Part shown: positions 2,435 to 9,408 of the stretch, one piece after another
How the letters are laid out: each line of letters begins with the position of its first letter
How positions within the stretch are numbered: position 1 is the first letter of the stretch
DNA from: an uncultured bacterium
Lineage (GTDB): Bacteria > Chloroflexota > Anaerolineae > J036 > Brachytrichaceae
DNA length: 64,000 nt
Direction: 5' to 3'
NCBI GenBank assembly: GCA_903921365.1
Contig: CAIXPS010000316.1
Coordinates: 1-64,000, forward strand
Program-made: the position numbers and the translations under genes
The notes under the pieces: model-generated
Databases searched by the model: none
Told to the model about the DNA's origin: nothing
What the model saw: the letters and a program-made list of their open reading frames with translations, nothing else

Positions 2435-3661
2435 TTATTGCCCCATTTCCTTGATCTGTGTAAGTGTCTTTTCATAGACCTCAAAATGCTCGCCCTCTGG
2501 ATCGTCTGGCTCGATGTACTTCATCCACATGCCTTGTTCAGGGTGATCACCGGACATAATCCGCCGGCTAGCCTGCACAACGCCAGTCGCATCAGACCAG
2601 CGCACCTGACCCATTTGCAGCAGAATGTACTTGCCGGCATAGTGTTTTTCGAACTCGGCCCGATGGTCCCGGTAAAACAGGGCTTGCTCAGCGGTGGTTT
2701 TACGCCAGCTAACCACCATCTCCTGCGCGTCAGGTTCGAGAGAGAAAAACTCGCCCACCGGAGCAGTCACTTCTGATTCAAAATCAATCTGGTTCAGGCT
2801 GACTGTCCCAAACCCGCCCTCTGCCGCTGTCAATAGATGATTGCGATCGCGGTGATAGGGCGGCGTCAGCCAGTCTGCCTGGGGATCGTGACCCATCAAC
2901 GCGGCTCCACAGGCATCCGTTGCAACCACTTGATCGCCAGCAATCAATGTGTTACAGACGCGAGGGTGTTCTCCGCGCCCCCACTCCATGCCTGCCTGCC
3001 CCACCAGGCCATCAATGATATTCAGGGCTGGGTCCATAATCCGTCCCAGGTCAGCCAGCATATAGGGCATGCGCACAAGGTGGTGGTAGTAAATGCGCGG
3101 GCGTCCCTGTGGCTCTATCGACATCAGTGCAAACAGGTTTTTCAAGCAAAGCGTGATCCCCATGTACTGATGGTTTTTAAGCTTTTGAACCGACACGACT
3201 GCATCGGCTTCCACCACAGGCAGGGGTAGAGGATAACGATCGAACATCTGCCCACCGCCTGGCACAGAAGTCCACACCGTTGGCGATTGTGAACCTTCGA
3301 TGAAGGACACGTTGAACTCGCGGAAGATCGGTAGAAGCTGGGTGCTGGAGCCATCCGTCACATGGGAGCGGATACCGTCCAGACTTATATCCACTGCAAA
3401 CAACTCAGCATGCGTCCTTTCCCTCAACAGGCGCAGCGTCGCGCGCGCGACCGGATCGCTCACCAATTGCTGACGATGTCCCTTGTGCATCACCACCGTA
3501 TCACGCGGCCCATCCTGGTTGAACTTTATCGCGATCCGCCTGGCATGACGGAGCTTGTCCCATGTGCGATCCAGTGGGTCAGTAGCGCGCTTGAGCGCCT
3601 GATAGACTTCCTCATCGCTGGAACGATAATCGCAATGTGCCGCGCGAACCGTGAAATTCAT
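2435..3661 (-). CDS. DUF362 family protein
   Basis: This is a DUF362 protein of about 408 residues. The segment KLKNHQYMGITLCLKNLFAL is the conserved core of the family, which often occurs with ferredoxin domains. This copy has no ferredoxin-type cysteine motif, so it is the domain alone with a C-terminal extension. The function of the family is not established. I chose the ATG at 3661; a TTG six codons upstream is also open but has no better ribosome site. The gene diverges from the manD-like gene and converges on hyuB with only 9 bases between stops. It has no recognisable operon partner here. Confidence 0.8.
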   Translation of the reverse strand: MNFTVRAAHCDYRSSDEEVYQALKRATDPLDRTWDKLRHARRIAIKFNQDGPRDTVVMHKGHRQQLVSDPVARATLRLLRERTHAELFAVDISLDGIRSHVTDGSSTQLLPIFREFNVSFIEGSQSPTVWTSVPGGGQMFDRYPLPLPVVEADAVVSVQKLKNHQYMGITLCLKNLFALMSIEPQGRPRIYYHHLVRMPYMLADLGRIMDPALNIIDGLVGQAGMEWGRGEHPRVCNTLIAGDQVVATDACGAALMGHDPQADWLTPPYHRDRNHLLTAAEGGFGTVSLNQIDFESEVTAPVGEFFSLEPDAQEMVVSWRKTTAEQALFYRDHRAEFEKHYAGKYILLQMGQVRWSDATGVVQASRRIMSGDHPEQGMWMKYIEPDDPEGEHFEVYEKTLTQIKEMGQ

Positions 3662-3765
3662 GGCGGATTGAGTTTTCAAATGATGTTCTCGCTCTTAGAA
3701 AACAATTGCCCGGGCTATGGGCTGGATCGAACGCAATATACACCGGGCAGCAGGTTTTCGCAAGA

Positions 3766-3793
3766 TTACGAATCTGGTCTATCCCCGTATAAT
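3766..3793 (+). promoter_or_regulatory. Possible promoter of the manD-like gene
   Basis: A perfect TATAAT hexamer lies at 3788-3793, about 80 bases before the ManD-like start. The matching -35 region (TTACGA at 3766, 16 bases away) is poor. The box is in the right place in a divergent intergenic region, but the evidence is only the hexamer. Confidence 0.35.
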
Positions 3794-3876
3794 GCAAATG
3801 AGTTCAATCAGCCTGGCTGTGACGCGAACTGTCGGCAGGCGCCCCCTTTCGCAAGCGATCGCAGGAGGAAATACGA

Positions 3877-5088
3877 ATGGCAAAACCGATTACGATCCAG
3901 GATGTCAAAACTTTTCTGATCCAGACTTCAGGCGCTGGAACGCGCTTTATCATCGTCAAAGTCATCACATCCGAGCCCGGCTTGTATGGCATTGGCTGCG
4001 CCACATTTACCCAGCGTTTCCGGGCAGTGGCGTCTGCAATTGAGGATCATCTGAAGCCTTTTGCGTTGGGCTGGGATGTTTCGCGGATTGAAGAGTTTTT
4101 CCAGATGGCCATGGTCCAGGGTTCCTGGCGCAATGGCCCGGTGTTGAGCAACGCCATCTCTGGGTTCGACATGGCATTGTGGGACATCAAAGGCAAACTG
4201 GCTAACATGCCGGTGTATGACCTGCTCGGTGGAAAATGCCGTGAAGCGGCTGCGGTGTATGCCCATGCCGACGGGCGCGATCCACAAGAGGTCGTCGACA
4301 ACGTCCGCAAGTATCAGGAGCAGGGTTACCACTTCATCCGTGTGCAAATGGGCGGTTACGGCGGGAAAAGCATGCAAATGGCTAAGCCCGATGGCGCCCG
4401 CAACGGCAACTATTACGACCCGCGCGCCTACACCCGCGCCATGCTCAAGATGATGGATTACGTGCGCGCCCAGGTCGGCGACGATGTGGAGTTGTTGCAT
4501 GATGTGCACGAGCGCCTGTCGCCAATTGACACCGTCATGTTTGCTAAAGACGTGGAGCACATCAAACTGTTCTTTCTTGAGGACTCACTGGCCCCGGAAG
4601 ATATCGAGTGGTTCCGCATGATCCGCCAGTTGTGCGCCACGCCCATCGCGATGGGTGAGTTGCTCAACAACCCGCACGAATGGCGTCTGTTAATCGAAGA
4701 GCGCCTGGTCGACTTTATCCGCATGCACGTCAGCCAGTTGGGCGGAATCACCCCAGCGCGCAATGCGGCCATCCACGCCAATATCTACGGAATCCGCACC
4801 GCCTGGCACGGCCCAGGCGATACATCGCCGATCGGCCACGCGGCAAACCTGCACCTAGACGTGTGGGAGCCCAATTTTGGCATCCAGGAATGGTGCCGCT
4901 TTGATCCGCTGATCTACGACATGTTCCCTGGGCTGCCCGAGGTGCGTAAAGGATATATGTACCCGAACGACAAACCCGGCCTGGGGATTGACCTGGATGA
5001 GGCGCTGGCGGCGAAATTTCCCTGCCGGGATGAAGTCGATTTCTGGACGCAGACGCGCCTGCCCGATGGCAGCCCGGCGAGACCATAA
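3877..5088 (+). CDS. manD: ManD/RspA-type mannonate (sugar acid) dehydratase, enolase superfamily
   Basis: This is a 403-residue enolase-superfamily enzyme of the D-mannonate dehydratase (ManD/RspA) group, which dehydrates a sugar acid to its 2-keto-3-deoxy product. Metal ligands can be assigned at D209 (HDVHERL), E235 (FLEDSLAPED) and E261 (MGELLNNPHEW). The acid/base H211 and the C-terminal H311 (WHGPGD) are also present. These match the known ManD layout (D210, H212, E236, E262) within one residue. The Arg/Tyr-bearing loop region RVQMGGYGGK is recognisable at about 155-164. An AGGAGG ribosome site precedes the ATG. Related enzymes differ in substrate (mannonate, gluconate) and some have very low activity, so the exact acid is uncertain. 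Confidence 0.88.
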   Translation: MAKPITIQDVKTFLIQTSGAGTRFIIVKVITSEPGLYGIGCATFTQRFRAVASAIEDHLKPFALGWDVSRIEEFFQMAMVQGSWRNGPVLSNAISGFDMALWDIKGKLANMPVYDLLGGKCREAAAVYAHADGRDPQEVVDNVRKYQEQGYHFIRVQMGGYGGKSMQMAKPDGARNGNYYDPRAYTRAMLKMMDYVRAQVGDDVELLHDVHERLSPIDTVMFAKDVEHIKLFFLEDSLAPEDIEWFRMIRQLCATPIAMGELLNNPHEWRLLIEERLVDFIRMHVSQLGGITPARNAAIHANIYGIRTAWHGPGDTSPIGHAANLHLDVWEPNFGIQEWCRFDPLIYDMFPGLPEVRKGYMYPNDKPGLGIDLDEALAAKFPCRDEVDFWTQTRLPDGSPARP

Positions 5089-5099
5089 GCGACGCGCGT

Positions 5100-5127
5100 T
5101 TGACATGTCCAACTGCCGGACTATAAT
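5100..5127 (+). promoter_or_regulatory. Strong sigma-70-type promoter of the B12 locus
   Basis: A perfect TTGACA (5100-5105) and a perfect TATAAT (5122-5127) are separated by 16 bases. The predicted start near 5134 lies about 20-30 bases before the cobalamin riboswitch, which supports use as the locus promoter. Confidence 0.8.
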
Positions 5128-5149
5128 GTTTTTGTCTTTAACAACCGAA

Positions 5150-5332
5150 TATTGTTGAGGTGACCCGAAGAGCCTGCACACGGTGCAGGTGTCTTCTGCC
5201 CGGATGCATGAGCATTCATGGGCGTAAAGGTGGAAGCTGGTGGCGCGCGCACAAAAGTGCGCGCGGAGTCCAGCACTGTGCCGCAACTGTAACCGATTCA
5301 CTCGGAAGTCAGGATGCCTGCCTCAACCAATT
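5150..5332 (+). promoter_or_regulatory. Cobalamin riboswitch
   Basis: The segment has the hallmarks of an adenosylcobalamin-class riboswitch. There is a GGTGCAGGTG 5' element near 5180, and a variable GC-rich hairpin at about 5244-5262 (GCGCGCACAAAAGTGCGCGC). These are followed by AGTCCAGCACTGTGCCGCAACTGTAA, read here in two overlapping blocks (AGTCCAGCACTG, then the B12 box GCCGCAACTGTAA), and by GGAAGTCAGGATGCCTGCC elements at about 5305-5323. It sits between a strong promoter and an intrinsic terminator. The genes behind it encode a toroid protein, a DUF4430 protein and ECF S/T subunits, so B12 should switch off this uptake operon. Confidence 0.93.
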
Positions 5333-5365
5333 CGTTCACACCTTCTCGTTGCAAGGAGGGAGAAC

Positions 5366-5383
5366 ATGATTCGCGCACCCTGA
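5366..5383 (+). CDS. Five-codon leader ORF between riboswitch and terminator (candidate)
   Basis: An excellent ribosome site (AAGGAGG at 5353) is followed by ATG and a five-codon frame reading MIRAP, then TGA. It lies between the cobalamin aptamer and the intrinsic terminator. It may be a leader peptide or simply part of the expression platform. No homology can be judged at this length. Confidence 0.25.
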   Translation: MIRAP

Positions 5384-5418
5384 CTAAAAGACATTCATCA
5401 GGTTTTGCGAAGTGCTCT

Positions 5419-5455
5419 ACCCGACCCAAAGATGATGGTCGGGTTTTTTGTTTTT
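5419..5455 (+). terminator. Intrinsic terminator in the B12 leader
   Basis: The arms ACCCGACC (5419-5426) and GGTCGGGT (5437-5444) form a perfect 8-bp stem with a 10-base loop, followed by a T-rich tract. It lies 20 bases before the first gene's ribosome site, so it is the likely riboswitch-controlled attenuator. Confidence 0.85.
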
Positions 5456-5475
5456 CGATCAAGGAGTTCAGTTCA

Positions 5476-6432
5476 ATGAAGTTGCAGTCAAAACTTATAT
5501 CTCGTTCAATCCGTCCCGTCATTGCGGCGTTGGTCATTCTTTGTTCCATTGCCGCCAGCGGCGAGCCACTCGCCATTGCCCAGGCCAATATCGTGACCGA
5601 TTCCGGCGCCCGCGCCGCCAAATGGCTCGCCGCCCAGCAACAGGCTGACGGTGGTTTCACCAATGGCTATAGCAAGACCAGCGATCCCAGCACAACTGCG
5701 GACGTGGTCGTAACACTCGCCGTCGCAAAGTCGCCTATCCCCTCAGCCACAACCGCCTATCTCGCCGCGAAAGTCGCTGGTGGGAAGTTGACAACCGGCG
5801 AATATGCCAAGGTAGCCCTGGCCGTCAAAACAGCCGGACTCGACCCGGCTAAGTTCGGCGGCATGGACCTGATTGCACAGATTGAGGCTGGCTACGATAC
5901 CAAGACCGGCGTCATCGGCGACGGTATCTTCGTGCACAGCACGGCGCTTCTGGCGCTCGCCGCCGCTAAGTCCCCCATTCCAGCTAAAGCCATCACGGCG
6001 CTCACAGGGTTTCAATCAGCCGAGGGCGGCTGGGCGTTCATGGGTAAAGGCGCCCCTGACGTGGACACAACAGCACAGGCAGTGCTAGCGCTCATTGCCG
6101 TCGGACTCCCCGCAAATACTGGCCCCGCAGGGCGCGGCCTTGGTTATCTGCACAGCTTGCAGAACGTCGACGGCGGTTTCCCGTATCAGTCGCCATCGCA
6201 ATACGGCACAGACTCAAACACGAACTCCTCTGGCCTCGTTGCGCAAGCCATTATCGCGAGCGGCGATCAGCCCGAGTCGTGGGCCCAGACTAAGGGCAAC
6301 CCATTGAGCGTGATCATCCTCCAGCAGCAACCCAGCGGCGCCTTTGCCTACCAGGGTAGCTTCCCCGGCGACAACATCATGGCCACCATCGGCGCGGTCC
6401 AGGCTCTCTATCGCTATGTCCCCGGTAAATAA
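5476..6432 (+). CDS. Secreted alpha/alpha-toroid (prenyltransferase-repeat) protein, transcobalamin N-domain-like
   Basis: This 318-residue protein has a signal peptide (hydrophobic 14-27, cleavage likely near AIAQA at 32-37). The mature protein is a series of helical-pair repeats with QxxxGGF/W signatures: QQADGGF (55-61), QSAEGGW (180-186), QNVDGGF (229-235) and a weaker QQPSGAF (284-290). Conserved D-x-T/S-T helix starts are at 70-75 and 195-200. These repeats form the alpha/alpha toroid fold shared by terpene cyclases, prenyltransferases and the N-terminal domain of transcobalamin and intrinsic factor. There is no cyclase DXDD motif, so catalysis is unlikely. The AAGGAG site at 5461 fixes the start. 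Riboswitch control, a DUF4430 neighbour and an ECF transporter suggest extracellular cobalamin binding. Confidence 0.78.
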   Translation: MKLQSKLISRSIRPVIAALVILCSIAASGEPLAIAQANIVTDSGARAAKWLAAQQQADGGFTNGYSKTSDPSTTADVVVTLAVAKSPIPSATTAYLAAKVAGGKLTTGEYAKVALAVKTAGLDPAKFGGMDLIAQIEAGYDTKTGVIGDGIFVHSTALLALAAAKSPIPAKAITALTGFQSAEGGWAFMGKGAPDVDTTAQAVLALIAVGLPANTGPAGRGLGYLHSLQNVDGGFPYQSPSQYGTDSNTNSSGLVAQAIIASGDQPESWAQTKGNPLSVIILQQQPSGAFAYQGSFPGDNIMATIGAVQALYRYVPGK

Positions 6433-6449
6433 CAGGCCGGCTCGTTAAC

Positions 6450-7385
6450 ATGATCAAGGTTCGTTACGTGATCGCGGTCGCCGCCCTGACGAGCGCTCTA
6501 GGCTTAAACCTGGCAGCGCTCGCGGCGCGCGCACAGGCAACGCCAAATCACGCCGGGCTGATTATTCAAGGCCCCAATGGCCAGGTAACCACACGGTGCG
6601 TGGCATTCGACGAACCCGAGATCACCGGCTATGAATTGCTTCGTCGCTCCAACCTGCCGCTGGTGGTCGATATCGCCAGCGGCGGGAGCCTCTGTAAGAT
6701 CCAGAACACCGGTTGCAATTTCCCGGCCCAGAAGTGTTTCTGCGAATGCCAGGATTTGAATCAGAGTTGCATTTATTGGCAATACTTCTTCCTGAGCGGG
6801 GGGACGTGGAAGTATTCACCACTTGGGATGTTAGGCCAGAAAGTAACAAACGGGAGCGTCAATGGTTGGAGCTATGGCGTCGGCAGCGCATCGTCTGGCG
6901 GTGCTGCGCCGCCGCTTATGACAGTCGAGCAGATATGCGAGGCATCTGCCGCTCCAACCGCACCGCCGACTGCTGCGCCTGCCGCGACTAAACAGCAGGT
7001 CGCGCCGCCCGCCTCCACCGCCAACCTTATTCCTGCAAGCACACCGACGCCTACAGCAGCGACTGTCACGGCTGTATCGACGACGGCTCTCGCAGTGACT
7101 CCATCCCCTGTCGCATTTTCATCACCATCGCCGGCGTCGGCGACAAGCCCGACAGTGCCGTCAACAAAAACGCCAGTCTCTGTTGCTGCCGCAGAACCTG
7201 CCACAGCAACATCACAACCATCATTAACGCCGCGTGCGGCGTTAATACCGACAATCGAGCCAGCAACGACCACACAGCCCGACGCGTCCAGCACAACAAG
7301 CTACGTCGTCTTCGGCGTCATCGTGGTTGCGCTGGTTGGATTGCTGCTGGTAACGCGTTCAGGCATGGGAAAGTCAAAACAATGA
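6450..7385 (+). CDS. Membrane-anchored DUF4430 (transcobalamin C-domain-like) protein
   Basis: This 311-residue protein has a signal peptide (1-30, ending ARAQA), a DUF4430-like domain (about 34-145) and a Thr/Pro/Ala/Ser-rich stalk (about 165-283). A single transmembrane helix (about 286-305) and a basic tail GKSKQ follow. The family features are GYELL (60-64), an aromatic WKYS segment and the terminal G-x-V-x-GWSYG (135-143). DUF4430 is described as resembling the C-terminal beta domain of transcobalamin. Eight cysteines (50, 82, 89, 96, 98, 100, 107, 163) are unusual and suggest disulfides. The order toroid protein, DUF4430 protein, transporter suggests the two soluble domains clamp B12 at the cell surface and pass it to the ECF module. 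Confidence 0.78.
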   Translation: MIKVRYVIAVAALTSALGLNLAALAARAQATPNHAGLIIQGPNGQVTTRCVAFDEPEITGYELLRRSNLPLVVDIASGGSLCKIQNTGCNFPAQKCFCECQDLNQSCIYWQYFFLSGGTWKYSPLGMLGQKVTNGSVNGWSYGVGSASSGGAAPPLMTVEQICEASAAPTAPPTAAPAATKQQVAPPASTANLIPASTPTPTAATVTAVSTTALAVTPSPVAFSSPSPASATSPTVPSTKTPVSVAAAEPATATSQPSLTPRAALIPTIEPATTTQPDASSTTSYVVFGVIVVALVGLLLVTRSGMGKSKQ

Positions 7386-8368
7386 GCGTCAACGATATCG
7401 TCCACAATAGACTCGGCACACTGCCCGTGATCGGCGCGGCGGATCGGCTGCCCAGCGTAAACCAGCGGCGCGTGTTGAACAAGCTGCTCAGCATCAGCAT
7501 CTACGCCCTGGCATCGCTGATCGGGCTATCAGCTTTCCTCTATCCGTTCTTCACGCTGTCGATCCAGACTGGCGCGGCGGCCACTCAGCAAATGGCGCAT
7601 GGCACAGACTCACCGCTCATGCTGGCCCTCCTCATCGGGTTGTGCCTGGCAGCGCTTGCGGTGGAAGCCCAGGGGCAGGCCATGAGTGCGAAGGTGATTG
7701 CGCTTCTCGGCATCCTGGTCGCCATCAATAGCGCGCTCCGCTTTGCAGAGGCCGTCGTGCGCGGCCCCGGCGGGTTCAGCCCCGTCTTTATGCTCATCAT
7801 CGTCTGCGGCTATGTGTTCGGCTCGCGCTTCGGGTTCCTGATGGGGATTCTGTCGCTACTGGTCTCCGCCATCATCACCGGCGGAATCGGCCCCTGGCTC
7901 CCTTATCAGATGTTCACCGCCGGATGGATGGGCATGAGCGCCGGTTGGATCGCCTACCTCCGCGATGCACTGATCGCGTTGAAGGGAAACAAGCCGAAGT
8001 CCACCCCATCAGCGCCCGCGACTGCGCGGCGCGGACCGAGCTTGGAAATCATCGCCCTCTGCGCCTTTGGCGCCCTGTGGGGATTCATCTACGGCGCAGT
8101 CATGAACCTGTGGTTCTGGCCGTTCCAGGCTGGCGATCCGGGGCAAAGCTGGCAGGCCGGCCTCGGTGTGGCGCAGGGGTTGCAACGTTATCTGGCATTT
8201 TACCTCGCGACATCGTTCATCTGGGACGTGTTCGCGGCTATTGGGAATGTCCTGTTGCTGGGATTGTTCGGCAAGCCTACCCTGCGCGCATTACAACGCT
8301 TCCGTAACCGCTTTATGTTCACACTCGAGACAAGCCCTTCGCCATTGACGCATGGTCAGGCGCAATAG
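7382..8368 (+). CDS. ECF transporter substrate-binding (S) subunit, probable cobalamin
   Basis: This is a 328-residue polytopic membrane protein of the ECF S-component type. The segment around residues 135-195 (PVFMLIIVCGYVFGSRFGFL, then the G-rich GGIGPWLPYQMFTAGWMGM) is the typical S-component core. The length and the additional C-terminal helices resemble the larger S components such as CbrT more than the small BioY or ThiT types. It overlaps the DUF4430 gene by ATGA and is followed 2 bases later by the T subunit. Cobalamin as substrate is inferred from the upstream riboswitch and the transcobalamin-like neighbours, not from residues seen here. Confidence 0.8.
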   Translation: MSVNDIVHNRLGTLPVIGAADRLPSVNQRRVLNKLLSISIYALASLIGLSAFLYPFFTLSIQTGAAATQQMAHGTDSPLMLALLIGLCLAALAVEAQGQAMSAKVIALLGILVAINSALRFAEAVVRGPGGFSPVFMLIIVCGYVFGSRFGFLMGILSLLVSAIITGGIGPWLPYQMFTAGWMGMSAGWIAYLRDALIALKGNKPKSTPSAPATARRGPSLEIIALCAFGALWGFIYGAVMNLWFWPFQAGDPGQSWQAGLGVAQGLQRYLAFYLATSFIWDVFAAIGNVLLLGLFGKPTLRALQRFRNRFMFTLETSPSPLTHGQAQ

Positions 8369-8370
8369 CC

Positions 8371-9408
8371 ATGCACCTGCGAAGTTGGCTCATCTGGGTC
8401 GCGAGCATTGCGGCAGTGACACTCACTACCCGCAATCCCCTGTACCTCGCGCTAACGCTCATGATCGTGCAGATCGTCAGCACGCAGGTCGCCAAGGCCA
8501 ACGGGGGCGCCGCGCCGACCTGGTGGTTGCGCTTCGGTGTGTTTGTTGTGCCGATCTCCGCTCTGTTCAACGCGATCAGTGTGCATTTCGGCGATACGAT
8601 ATTGTTCACCATCCCCGGCGCTATCCCGCTGATCAGCGGCATCGTGACGCTTGAGGCGCTCGCGTATGGCGCACTCAACGGCGCTCTCATCACCGTCGTC
8701 ATCGCCGTGTTCGCGGTGTTCAACCTCGCCATTCCCGCCTATCAGCTCGTGCGCAGCACGCCACGCACCTTCCAGTCGATGGGAATTACCGTCGGGATTG
8801 CGTTGTCATTCATTCCGCAGACAGCGCGACGACTCAAGGAAGTGCGCGAGGCCCAGTCTGTGCGCGGCCACCGGGTGCGCGGCCTGCGCGACTGGTTGCC
8901 GTTGTGGTTGCCGCTGCTGATTGGCGGCCTGGAGCAATCCACGCAGCTCTCGGAAGCGATGGTCGCGCGTGGGTTCGGCGCCATCCAGGATCGCACTACG
9001 TCGTTGCGAACCCGCGCGCTATTCGCTGCGGGACTGTGTTTGGTGCTTATTGGCTGGTTGATCGGATTTGTCGTTCGCGACATCGGCGCCGCCAGCACCG
9101 TGTTGATGCTGCTTGGTGCTCTGCTCGTCTTCGCCGGCTTGTGGTTCAGTGGGCGCGCCGTTCCGCACAGCGTCTACAACCCGCAGCATTTTACGGTCAT
9201 CGATGGCCTGTGCGCCGTCAGCAGCATCGTGATCGCGGTATTGTTGCTTGTGCCCAACCCAATCATCTCGCAGCAGTCTCTACTCTACTACCCATACCCG
9301 CATTTGACTGCCCCGCTTTTCGACCCCATCGCCGGCCTCTTGATGCTGCTGTGGCTGCTCCCACTCATCGCATTACAACCAGCCGCACATAGCCAGAAAG
9401 ATCTTTAG
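8371..9408 (+). CDS. ecfT: ECF transporter transmembrane (T) subunit
   Basis: This 345-residue membrane protein is an EcfT (CbiQ-like) subunit, which couples ATP hydrolysis to the S component. The two coupling motifs are visible: SVRGHRVRG (163-171, the first motif, with V in place of the usual A) and AMVARGFG (196-203). The RDWLPLWLPLLIGGLEQSTQ segment between them is characteristic. It is the last gene of the riboswitch-controlled unit. No ECF ATPase gene lies in this window, so the energising subunits must be encoded elsewhere or shared with other ECF transporters. Confidence 0.88.
   Translation: MHLRSWLIWVASIAAVTLTTRNPLYLALTLMIVQIVSTQVAKANGGAAPTWWLRFGVFVVPISALFNAISVHFGDTILFTIPGAIPLISGIVTLEALAYGALNGALITVVIAVFAVFNLAIPAYQLVRSTPRTFQSMGITVGIALSFIPQTARRLKEVREAQSVRGHRVRGLRDWLPLWLPLLIGGLEQSTQLSEAMVARGFGAIQDRTTSLRTRALFAAGLCLVLIGWLIGFVVRDIGAASTVLMLLGALLVFAGLWFSGRAVPHSVYNPQHFTVIDGLCAVSSIVIAVLLLVPNPIISQQSLLYYPYPHLTAPLFDPIAGLLMLLWLLPLIALQPAAHSQKDL

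Follow-up and report, generated by a model that had tools for sequence, protein, structure and literature searches.

Little is known of how bacteria that lack BtuB capture extracellular vitamin B12, and one locus of an uncultured member of the Chloroflexota raises the question of whether this could be done by a transcobalamin-like carrier made of two separate proteins. The locus lies in a 64,000-nucleotide stretch of DNA (hereafter the window: assembly GCA_903921365.1, contig CAIXPS010000316.1, positions 1 to 64,000; G000:C316:1-64000 in our codes) taken from a genome of 6.9 Mb in 603 contigs that is 96.9% complete. After a leader with a terminator, four genes follow one another: A, encoding a toroid protein, B, encoding a stalked and anchored protein, and C and D, encoding the S and T subunits of an energy-coupling factor (ECF) transporter. 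An earlier note, made from the sequence alone, had read them as a two-piece B12 capture system linked to its own transporter, and our analysis supports this interpretation in part. With a probability of roughly three in four, we consider that the operon encodes a corrinoid (vitamin B12) capture-and-import system in which A and B feed C.

A cobalamin riboswitch heads a conserved operon

The leader of the operon contains a cobalamin riboswitch aptamer that matches the full-length RF00174 model (model positions 1-189) above the Rfam gathering threshold. The strong promoter and the terminator claimed together with it in the earlier note were also recovered. The promoter fits the consensus exactly, promoter-like sites numbering 2 against 0.2 expected in shuffles, and the terminator is a hairpin of -13.4 kcal/mol (z=-3.0) followed by a T run, which the consensus terminator scan passed over because of its 10-nt loop. 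This terminator is presumed to be the expression platform of the riboswitch. The four downstream coding regions are all open and are spaced by 17, -4 and 2 bases, well inside the 43 bases given before as the largest gap or overlap.

We compared 47 loci from the window's relatives and from genomes across the phylum (labelled below by L codes for loci and G codes for genomes), where some gene absences are due to contig ends. B is present at 47/47 loci, A at 45/47, D at 38/47, C at 32/47 and the ECF ATPase at 27/47; the two loci devoid of A are L042, in which B is alone on a 7-kb contig, and L109, in which no toroid was scored. A cobalamin riboswitch heads the cluster at 44 of the 47 relatives' loci, in other genomes, yet the 6.9 Mb of the host genome hold only two such riboswitches, which excludes a chance occurrence of the leader next to the cluster.

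B was found in 98 of the 400 genomes sampled across the phylum. A single-protein search of a named genome collection returned two loci, one from an uncultured bin and the other from a metagenome-assembled genome of Thermoflexus (Chloroflexota), whose operon (L144) is preceded by two tandem cobalamin riboswitches (1018-1478). At L030 (28-176), a group II intron match lies a short distance upstream of the operon riboswitch. The plasmid of Streptomyces sp. SAT1 carries, in this order, a riboswitch, an SLBB-toroid-toroid protein, a stalked SLBB protein, a T subunit, an ATPase and an S subunit, with metE adjoining, and the gene order is identical on a second Streptomyces plasmid. Toroid A, searched among plasmids, gave no match.

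Proteins B and A resemble the two domains of transcobalamin

Since the sequence profile of B gave only chance-like matches in the Protein Data Bank (PDB), a structure-based fold search was needed. The AlphaFold2 model of the SLBB domain of B, for which an alignment of 34 relatives' SLBB domains (A1) was the input, reached a predicted local distance difference test score (pLDDT) of 93.8 and a predicted template modelling score (pTM) of 0.87. Submitted to Foldseek against the PDB, it retrieved transcobalamin, haptocorrin or intrinsic factor at ranks 1-10, 12 and 13, and chains of 3u7z, a Ruminococcus protein, at ranks 11 and 14. The top matches had a probability of 1.00, an E of about 3e-3 and a TMq of about 0.5; despite this modest E, the order of the hits is unambiguous, and the predicted fold of B is that of the transcobalamin beta domain. 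The stalk, the anchor and the transcobalamin C-domain fold attributed to B in the earlier note stood, but its DUF4430 membership did not, as neither B nor any of 33 relatives matched Pfam DUF4430 (PF14478), even with hits accepted up to E=1. Nearly every relative of B has a Pro/Thr/Ser/Ala stalk and a hydrophobic anchor, and tail hydropathy is above 1.6 in 42/53 of them.

Four cysteines of the alignment (C56, C63, C70 and C72 of A1, window 6693-6743) are invariant across the 34 SLBB domains of the clade, which suggests that they may form disulphides, or a metal site. Some short second SLBB proteins (the second B genes of L029, L030, L034 and L037, together with L031 2052-2630 and L047 409-1026) have either PEP-CTERM-like or LPxTG-like tails according to the genome, so that different sorting systems seem to serve the paralogues of a single operon.

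Protein A matches the Pfam toroid families SQHop_cyclase_C/N over cut-off, Prenyltrans at cut-off and Cobalamin_bind below cut-off (E=7e-4), and its relatives match toroid families likewise. Searched against the PDB, the toroid profile was nearest to squalene-hopene cyclases (1e-41), and its match to transcobalamin-1 was weak (2e-3) but full length. These families, together with the alignment of the homologous L118 toroid with transcobalamin, agree with the proposal that A has the fold type of the transcobalamin N-domain. A and B also match, weakly and far below the curated cut-offs, the Streptomyces NCBIfam families SCO2321 (SCO2321_fam, E=4e-25 for A) and SCO2322, whose function is unnamed, and the gene set recurs in the Streptomyces plasmid operon. 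The chain of A terminates directly after the toroid, a C-terminal anchor being absent in the window and near relatives, and an LPxTG-like tail is frequent in more distant homologues. The toroid proteins of L029, L034, L035, L037, L093 and L097 terminate in short motifs, for example YLPLV, YFPVL or YLPIV, possibly an undescribed surface-sorting tail.

A and B are joined in natural fusions

At L115 and L118, a single chain runs from a signal through toroid, SLBB and stalk to an anchor, directly ahead of the S and T genes and headed by a riboswitch. Toroid-toroid-SLBB fusions are encoded at L091, L092 and L112, and SLBB-toroid fusions, each accompanied by a further SLBB protein, at L035, L038, L094, L114, L116 and L144. 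A-B fusions therefore occur in several lineages and in both domain orders; in many relatives, the operon encodes two SLBB proteins. The separation of A and B seen in the window is shared by L021-L026 and is thus not an assembly fault. Taken together, the natural fusions and the near-complete co-occurrence of the two genes support a functional pairing of A and B.

We modelled the toroid-SLBB chain of L118 with an alignment (A3) that included five natural fusions, and in which the SLBB and toroid rows lay on the correct parts. The top 15 PDB matches of this apo model (pLDDT 92.8, pTM 0.82) were all transcobalamin, haptocorrin or intrinsic factor, with both domains matched and a best E of 2e-11.

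A CbrT-like importer with an unlinked ATPase

The assignment of C and D as S and T subunits was confirmed by matches to ECF_trnsprt and CbiQ that both exceed the Pfam cut-offs. C belongs to PF12822 and had no match to the CbiM family in Pfam, NCBIfam or the PDB profile search. With a profile of 25 sequences of the C family, the first PDB match was 6fnp_A (E=2.4e-7), the next one being at 0.12; unlike the family profile, the single sequence of C gave no match. 6FNP is ECF-CbrT, for which ATP-dependent uptake of cobalamin and cobinamide was reported (PMC5997447), and its chain A (182 aa) is probably CbrT, judged by its size and by its match to an S subunit.

The ECF ATPase of the host is encoded outside the operon, on another contig, as a tandem protein (G000:C337:13696-15243; L058 7490-9301) that exceeds the NCBIfam TIGR04520 cut-off and shares 53% identity with the operon-linked ATPase of L028. 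No riboswitch was found near this gene. In the window's genus, ATPases of this type are solitary, apart from the S and T genes, and the orthologues of close relatives also lie on other contigs; at other loci, the ATPase is inside the operon. The private transporter described in the earlier note is thus present for its S and T subunits but incomplete at the operon.

B12 use in the host and in a related operon

The host genome encodes NrdJ, nine B12-binding domains and CobS, and the first two mark it as a predicted B12 user. CbiC was not found in it. Across genomes, CbiC occurs in 3/28 with B and in 3/32 without B, giving no signal that the system accompanies a loss of corrin synthesis. The host's other cobalamin riboswitch (L142, G000:C432, 531-6824) lies ahead of a BtuF-BtuC-BtuD-like set, and this locus also encodes BtuR, cobyrinate a,c-diamide synthase and another BtuF-like protein, although the genome is without CbiC. 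Given this second riboswitch-controlled system, the ECF system may be used for a different corrinoid or under different conditions. In the L028 operon (3594-5751), genes for CbiR (equivalog, E=5.6e-72), CobS and CobU lie between the ATPase and S genes, suggesting that cobamides are imported and remodelled by proteins apparently encoded on one transcript. At the level of sequence, the riboswitch, the CbrT-like S subunit and this CbiR-CobS-CobU sister operon support a B12 or corrinoid specificity of the system.

Table 1. Features of the operon and its leader, in window coordinates
Feature	Position	Strand	Basis
Sigma-70-type promoter, TTGACA-16-TATAAT	5100..5127	+	12/12 consensus matches; predicted from consensus alone
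Cobalamin riboswitch aptamer RF00174	5170..5339	+	37.1 bits vs gathering 31.5
Intrinsic terminator	5419..5455	+	8-bp stem (about 5419-5444), then T run
Protein A, secreted alpha/alpha-toroid, 318 aa	5476..6432	+	Pfam toroid families; signal peptide by inspection
Protein B, signal peptide + SLBB + stalk + anchor, 311 aa	6450..7385	+	
SLBB (transcobalamin-like beta-grasp) domain of B	6528..6956	+	Segment for alignment A1 and structure model
Pro/Thr/Ser/Ala-rich stalk of B	6957..7298	+	Sequence; common to most relatives
Predicted transmembrane anchor of B, SYVVFGVIVVALVGLLLVTR	7299..7358	+	Hydrophobic segment by inspection
Protein C, ECF transporter S subunit, CbrT-like	7382..8368	+	Pfam ECF_trnsprt 37.8 bits vs 30.7
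Protein D, ECF T subunit, CbiQ family	8371..9408	+	Pfam CbiQ 28.5 bits vs 25

Discussion

In the mechanism that we propose, scarcity of cobalamin would lead the riboswitch of the leader to allow transcription through the terminator. A and B would then be exported, B being raised by its stalk above the outer surface of the membrane, where it presents its transcobalamin-type beta-grasp domain, and A acting as a transcobalamin-type toroid devoid of an anchor of its own. Like the two transcobalamin domains, the two proteins would most likely enclose one corrinoid between them, and the pair would deliver it to C, the CbrT-like S subunit, energised by D and the unlinked ECF ATPase. A tentative extension of this scheme, which we regard as possible although we lean against it, is that A, which has no anchor, would diffuse as a B12 scavenger (a "cobalophore") that stays apart from tethered B until it is loaded with a corrinoid. 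The vitamin would then glue A to B atop the importer, and only loaded scavengers would be recaptured. If this were true, bacteria would operate, as a receptor of two components, what is a single chain in animals.

Several results weigh against capture and import by A to D. The ATPase is absent from the window operon, and no close orthologue of the C337 ATPase was found in G008 and G014. The same genome has a riboswitch-controlled BtuFCD-like system, hence A to D are not its sole B12 importer. The toroid sequence is closer to terpene-cyclase repeats than to transcobalamin (1e-41 vs 2e-3), and the papers found report no measured B12 binding for bacterial proteins of this group. Finally, the domains of the L118 apo model are placed unlike those of transcobalamin, with a root mean square deviation of about 24 Å and a TM score of about 0.45. 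However, the domains of human transcobalamin share a very small interface, join only with cobalamin, and do so around it when produced separately (PMC5599065), so that an apo fusion model cannot decide on the clamp.

Another explanation, rather doubtful and in any case a refinement compatible with corrinoid capture and import, could be that the system imports a precursor of corrinoids or a cobamide of foreign origin (cobinamide, pseudo-B12), B12 itself being taken up by the BtuFCD-like system. The remodelling of imported cobamides suggested by the CbiR, CobS and CobU genes of L028 would fit such a substrate, as would the BtuR and cobyrinate a,c-diamide synthase genes accompanying the second riboswitch-controlled system, the CobS of the genome, and the transport of cobinamide besides B12 by CbrT (PMC5997447). 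Sequence does not separate these substrates, however, and CbrT, like the human carriers, has a broad specificity.

It is unlikely that B alone binds the corrinoid and feeds C, with no two-piece clamp and with another job for A, such as a structural or scaffolding toroid or the binding of corrinoid precursors. The isolated beta domain of human transcobalamin does bind cobalamin (PMC5599065), the fused L118 model lacks a transcobalamin-like closed form, and in many relatives the operon encodes two SLBB proteins. Nevertheless, A accompanies B at all but L042 and L109 among the 47 loci, and the two are fused in several lineages in either order.

Very improbable is a cobalt or nickel ECF importer of the CbiMNQO type with an incidental B12 regulation. 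D is in the CbiQ family, and cobalt transporters are often controlled by cobalamin riboswitches, but extracellular transcobalamin-like proteins would be senseless for a free metal ion, and the host, whose genome is without CbiC, would not need cobalt for corrin synthesis. We rejected this reading because C, a PF12822 protein, matches CbrT by its profile and no CbiM family. An exported terpene-cyclase-like enzyme placed in the operon by chance is hardly credible for the toroid and was rejected as well: squalene-hopene cyclases are the best sequence matches of its profile, but the DxDD acid motif of class II terpene cyclases is lost, most of 84 toroid domains having Dx(D/N)(T/S)T instead (DVDTT in the window; T or S in the fourth column in 68/84, middle Asp replaced by Asn in 36/84), and the signal peptide seen by inspection, the SLBB fusions of several lineages and the B12 switch nearly always ahead all argue against it.

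Animal transcobalamin, haptocorrin and intrinsic factor have the same two folds and are the best PDB matches of both B and the natural A-B fusion. The window proteins differ from them in being bacterial and membrane-tethered, with separate domains and with an importer next to them instead of a receptor; sequence identity is about 10-16%, and the domain placement of the clamp is not reproduced in the model. BtuG of Bacteroides acts at an outer membrane. By their description in the source, BtuG surface lipoproteins likewise capture B12 at the surface ahead of a transporter (PMC6143338), and we liken them to A and B by that description only. ECF-CbrT of Lactobacillus delbrueckii (6FNP, PMC5997447) resembles the importer in its S subunit (profile match E=2.4e-7), its EcfT and its two ATPase domains, but it was described without surface capture proteins, whereas here a dedicated capture pair is combined with an unlinked, tandem-fused ATPase.

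The closest precedent is a prediction. In the portion of their paper that we consulted, Burroughs et al. (2007) described bacterial SLBB proteins with toroids that are secreted, often anchored, and encoded in operons with CbiO-like and CbiQ-like genes, and they inferred B12 scavenging (PMC1796856). The present system is therefore a variant of these predicted scavengers and not a new kind. The claim that such an arrangement is poorly described holds, as far as that portion goes, for the split form with a free toroid, but not for toroid/SLBB scavengers as such (PMC1796856). The same portion gives a range of low-GC Gram-positives, planctomycetes and archaea, as compared with Chloroflexota and Streptomyces here; the system analysed here further differs from the proteins described in it by the cobalamin riboswitch, the CbrT-like S subunit, the corrinoid-remodelling genes in one operon and the free toroid (PMC1796856). 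Relative to that portion, the split free-toroid form, the conservation of the riboswitch, the link of the S subunit to CbrT, the corrinoid-remodelling operon and the range in Chloroflexota and Streptomyces are new. A full-text search, outside which most subscription papers lie, found no later experimental test of the prediction.

The operon ties a transcobalamin-like pair to one ligand and one importer through gene order, riboswitch and CbrT-type subunit, and with it a few small proteins suffice to test the 2007 prediction directly. The operon also provides a model in bacteria for studying how the B12 carriers of animals evolved. Since the set recurs across the Chloroflexota and in Streptomyces, it is likely to represent a common route of B12 scavenging.

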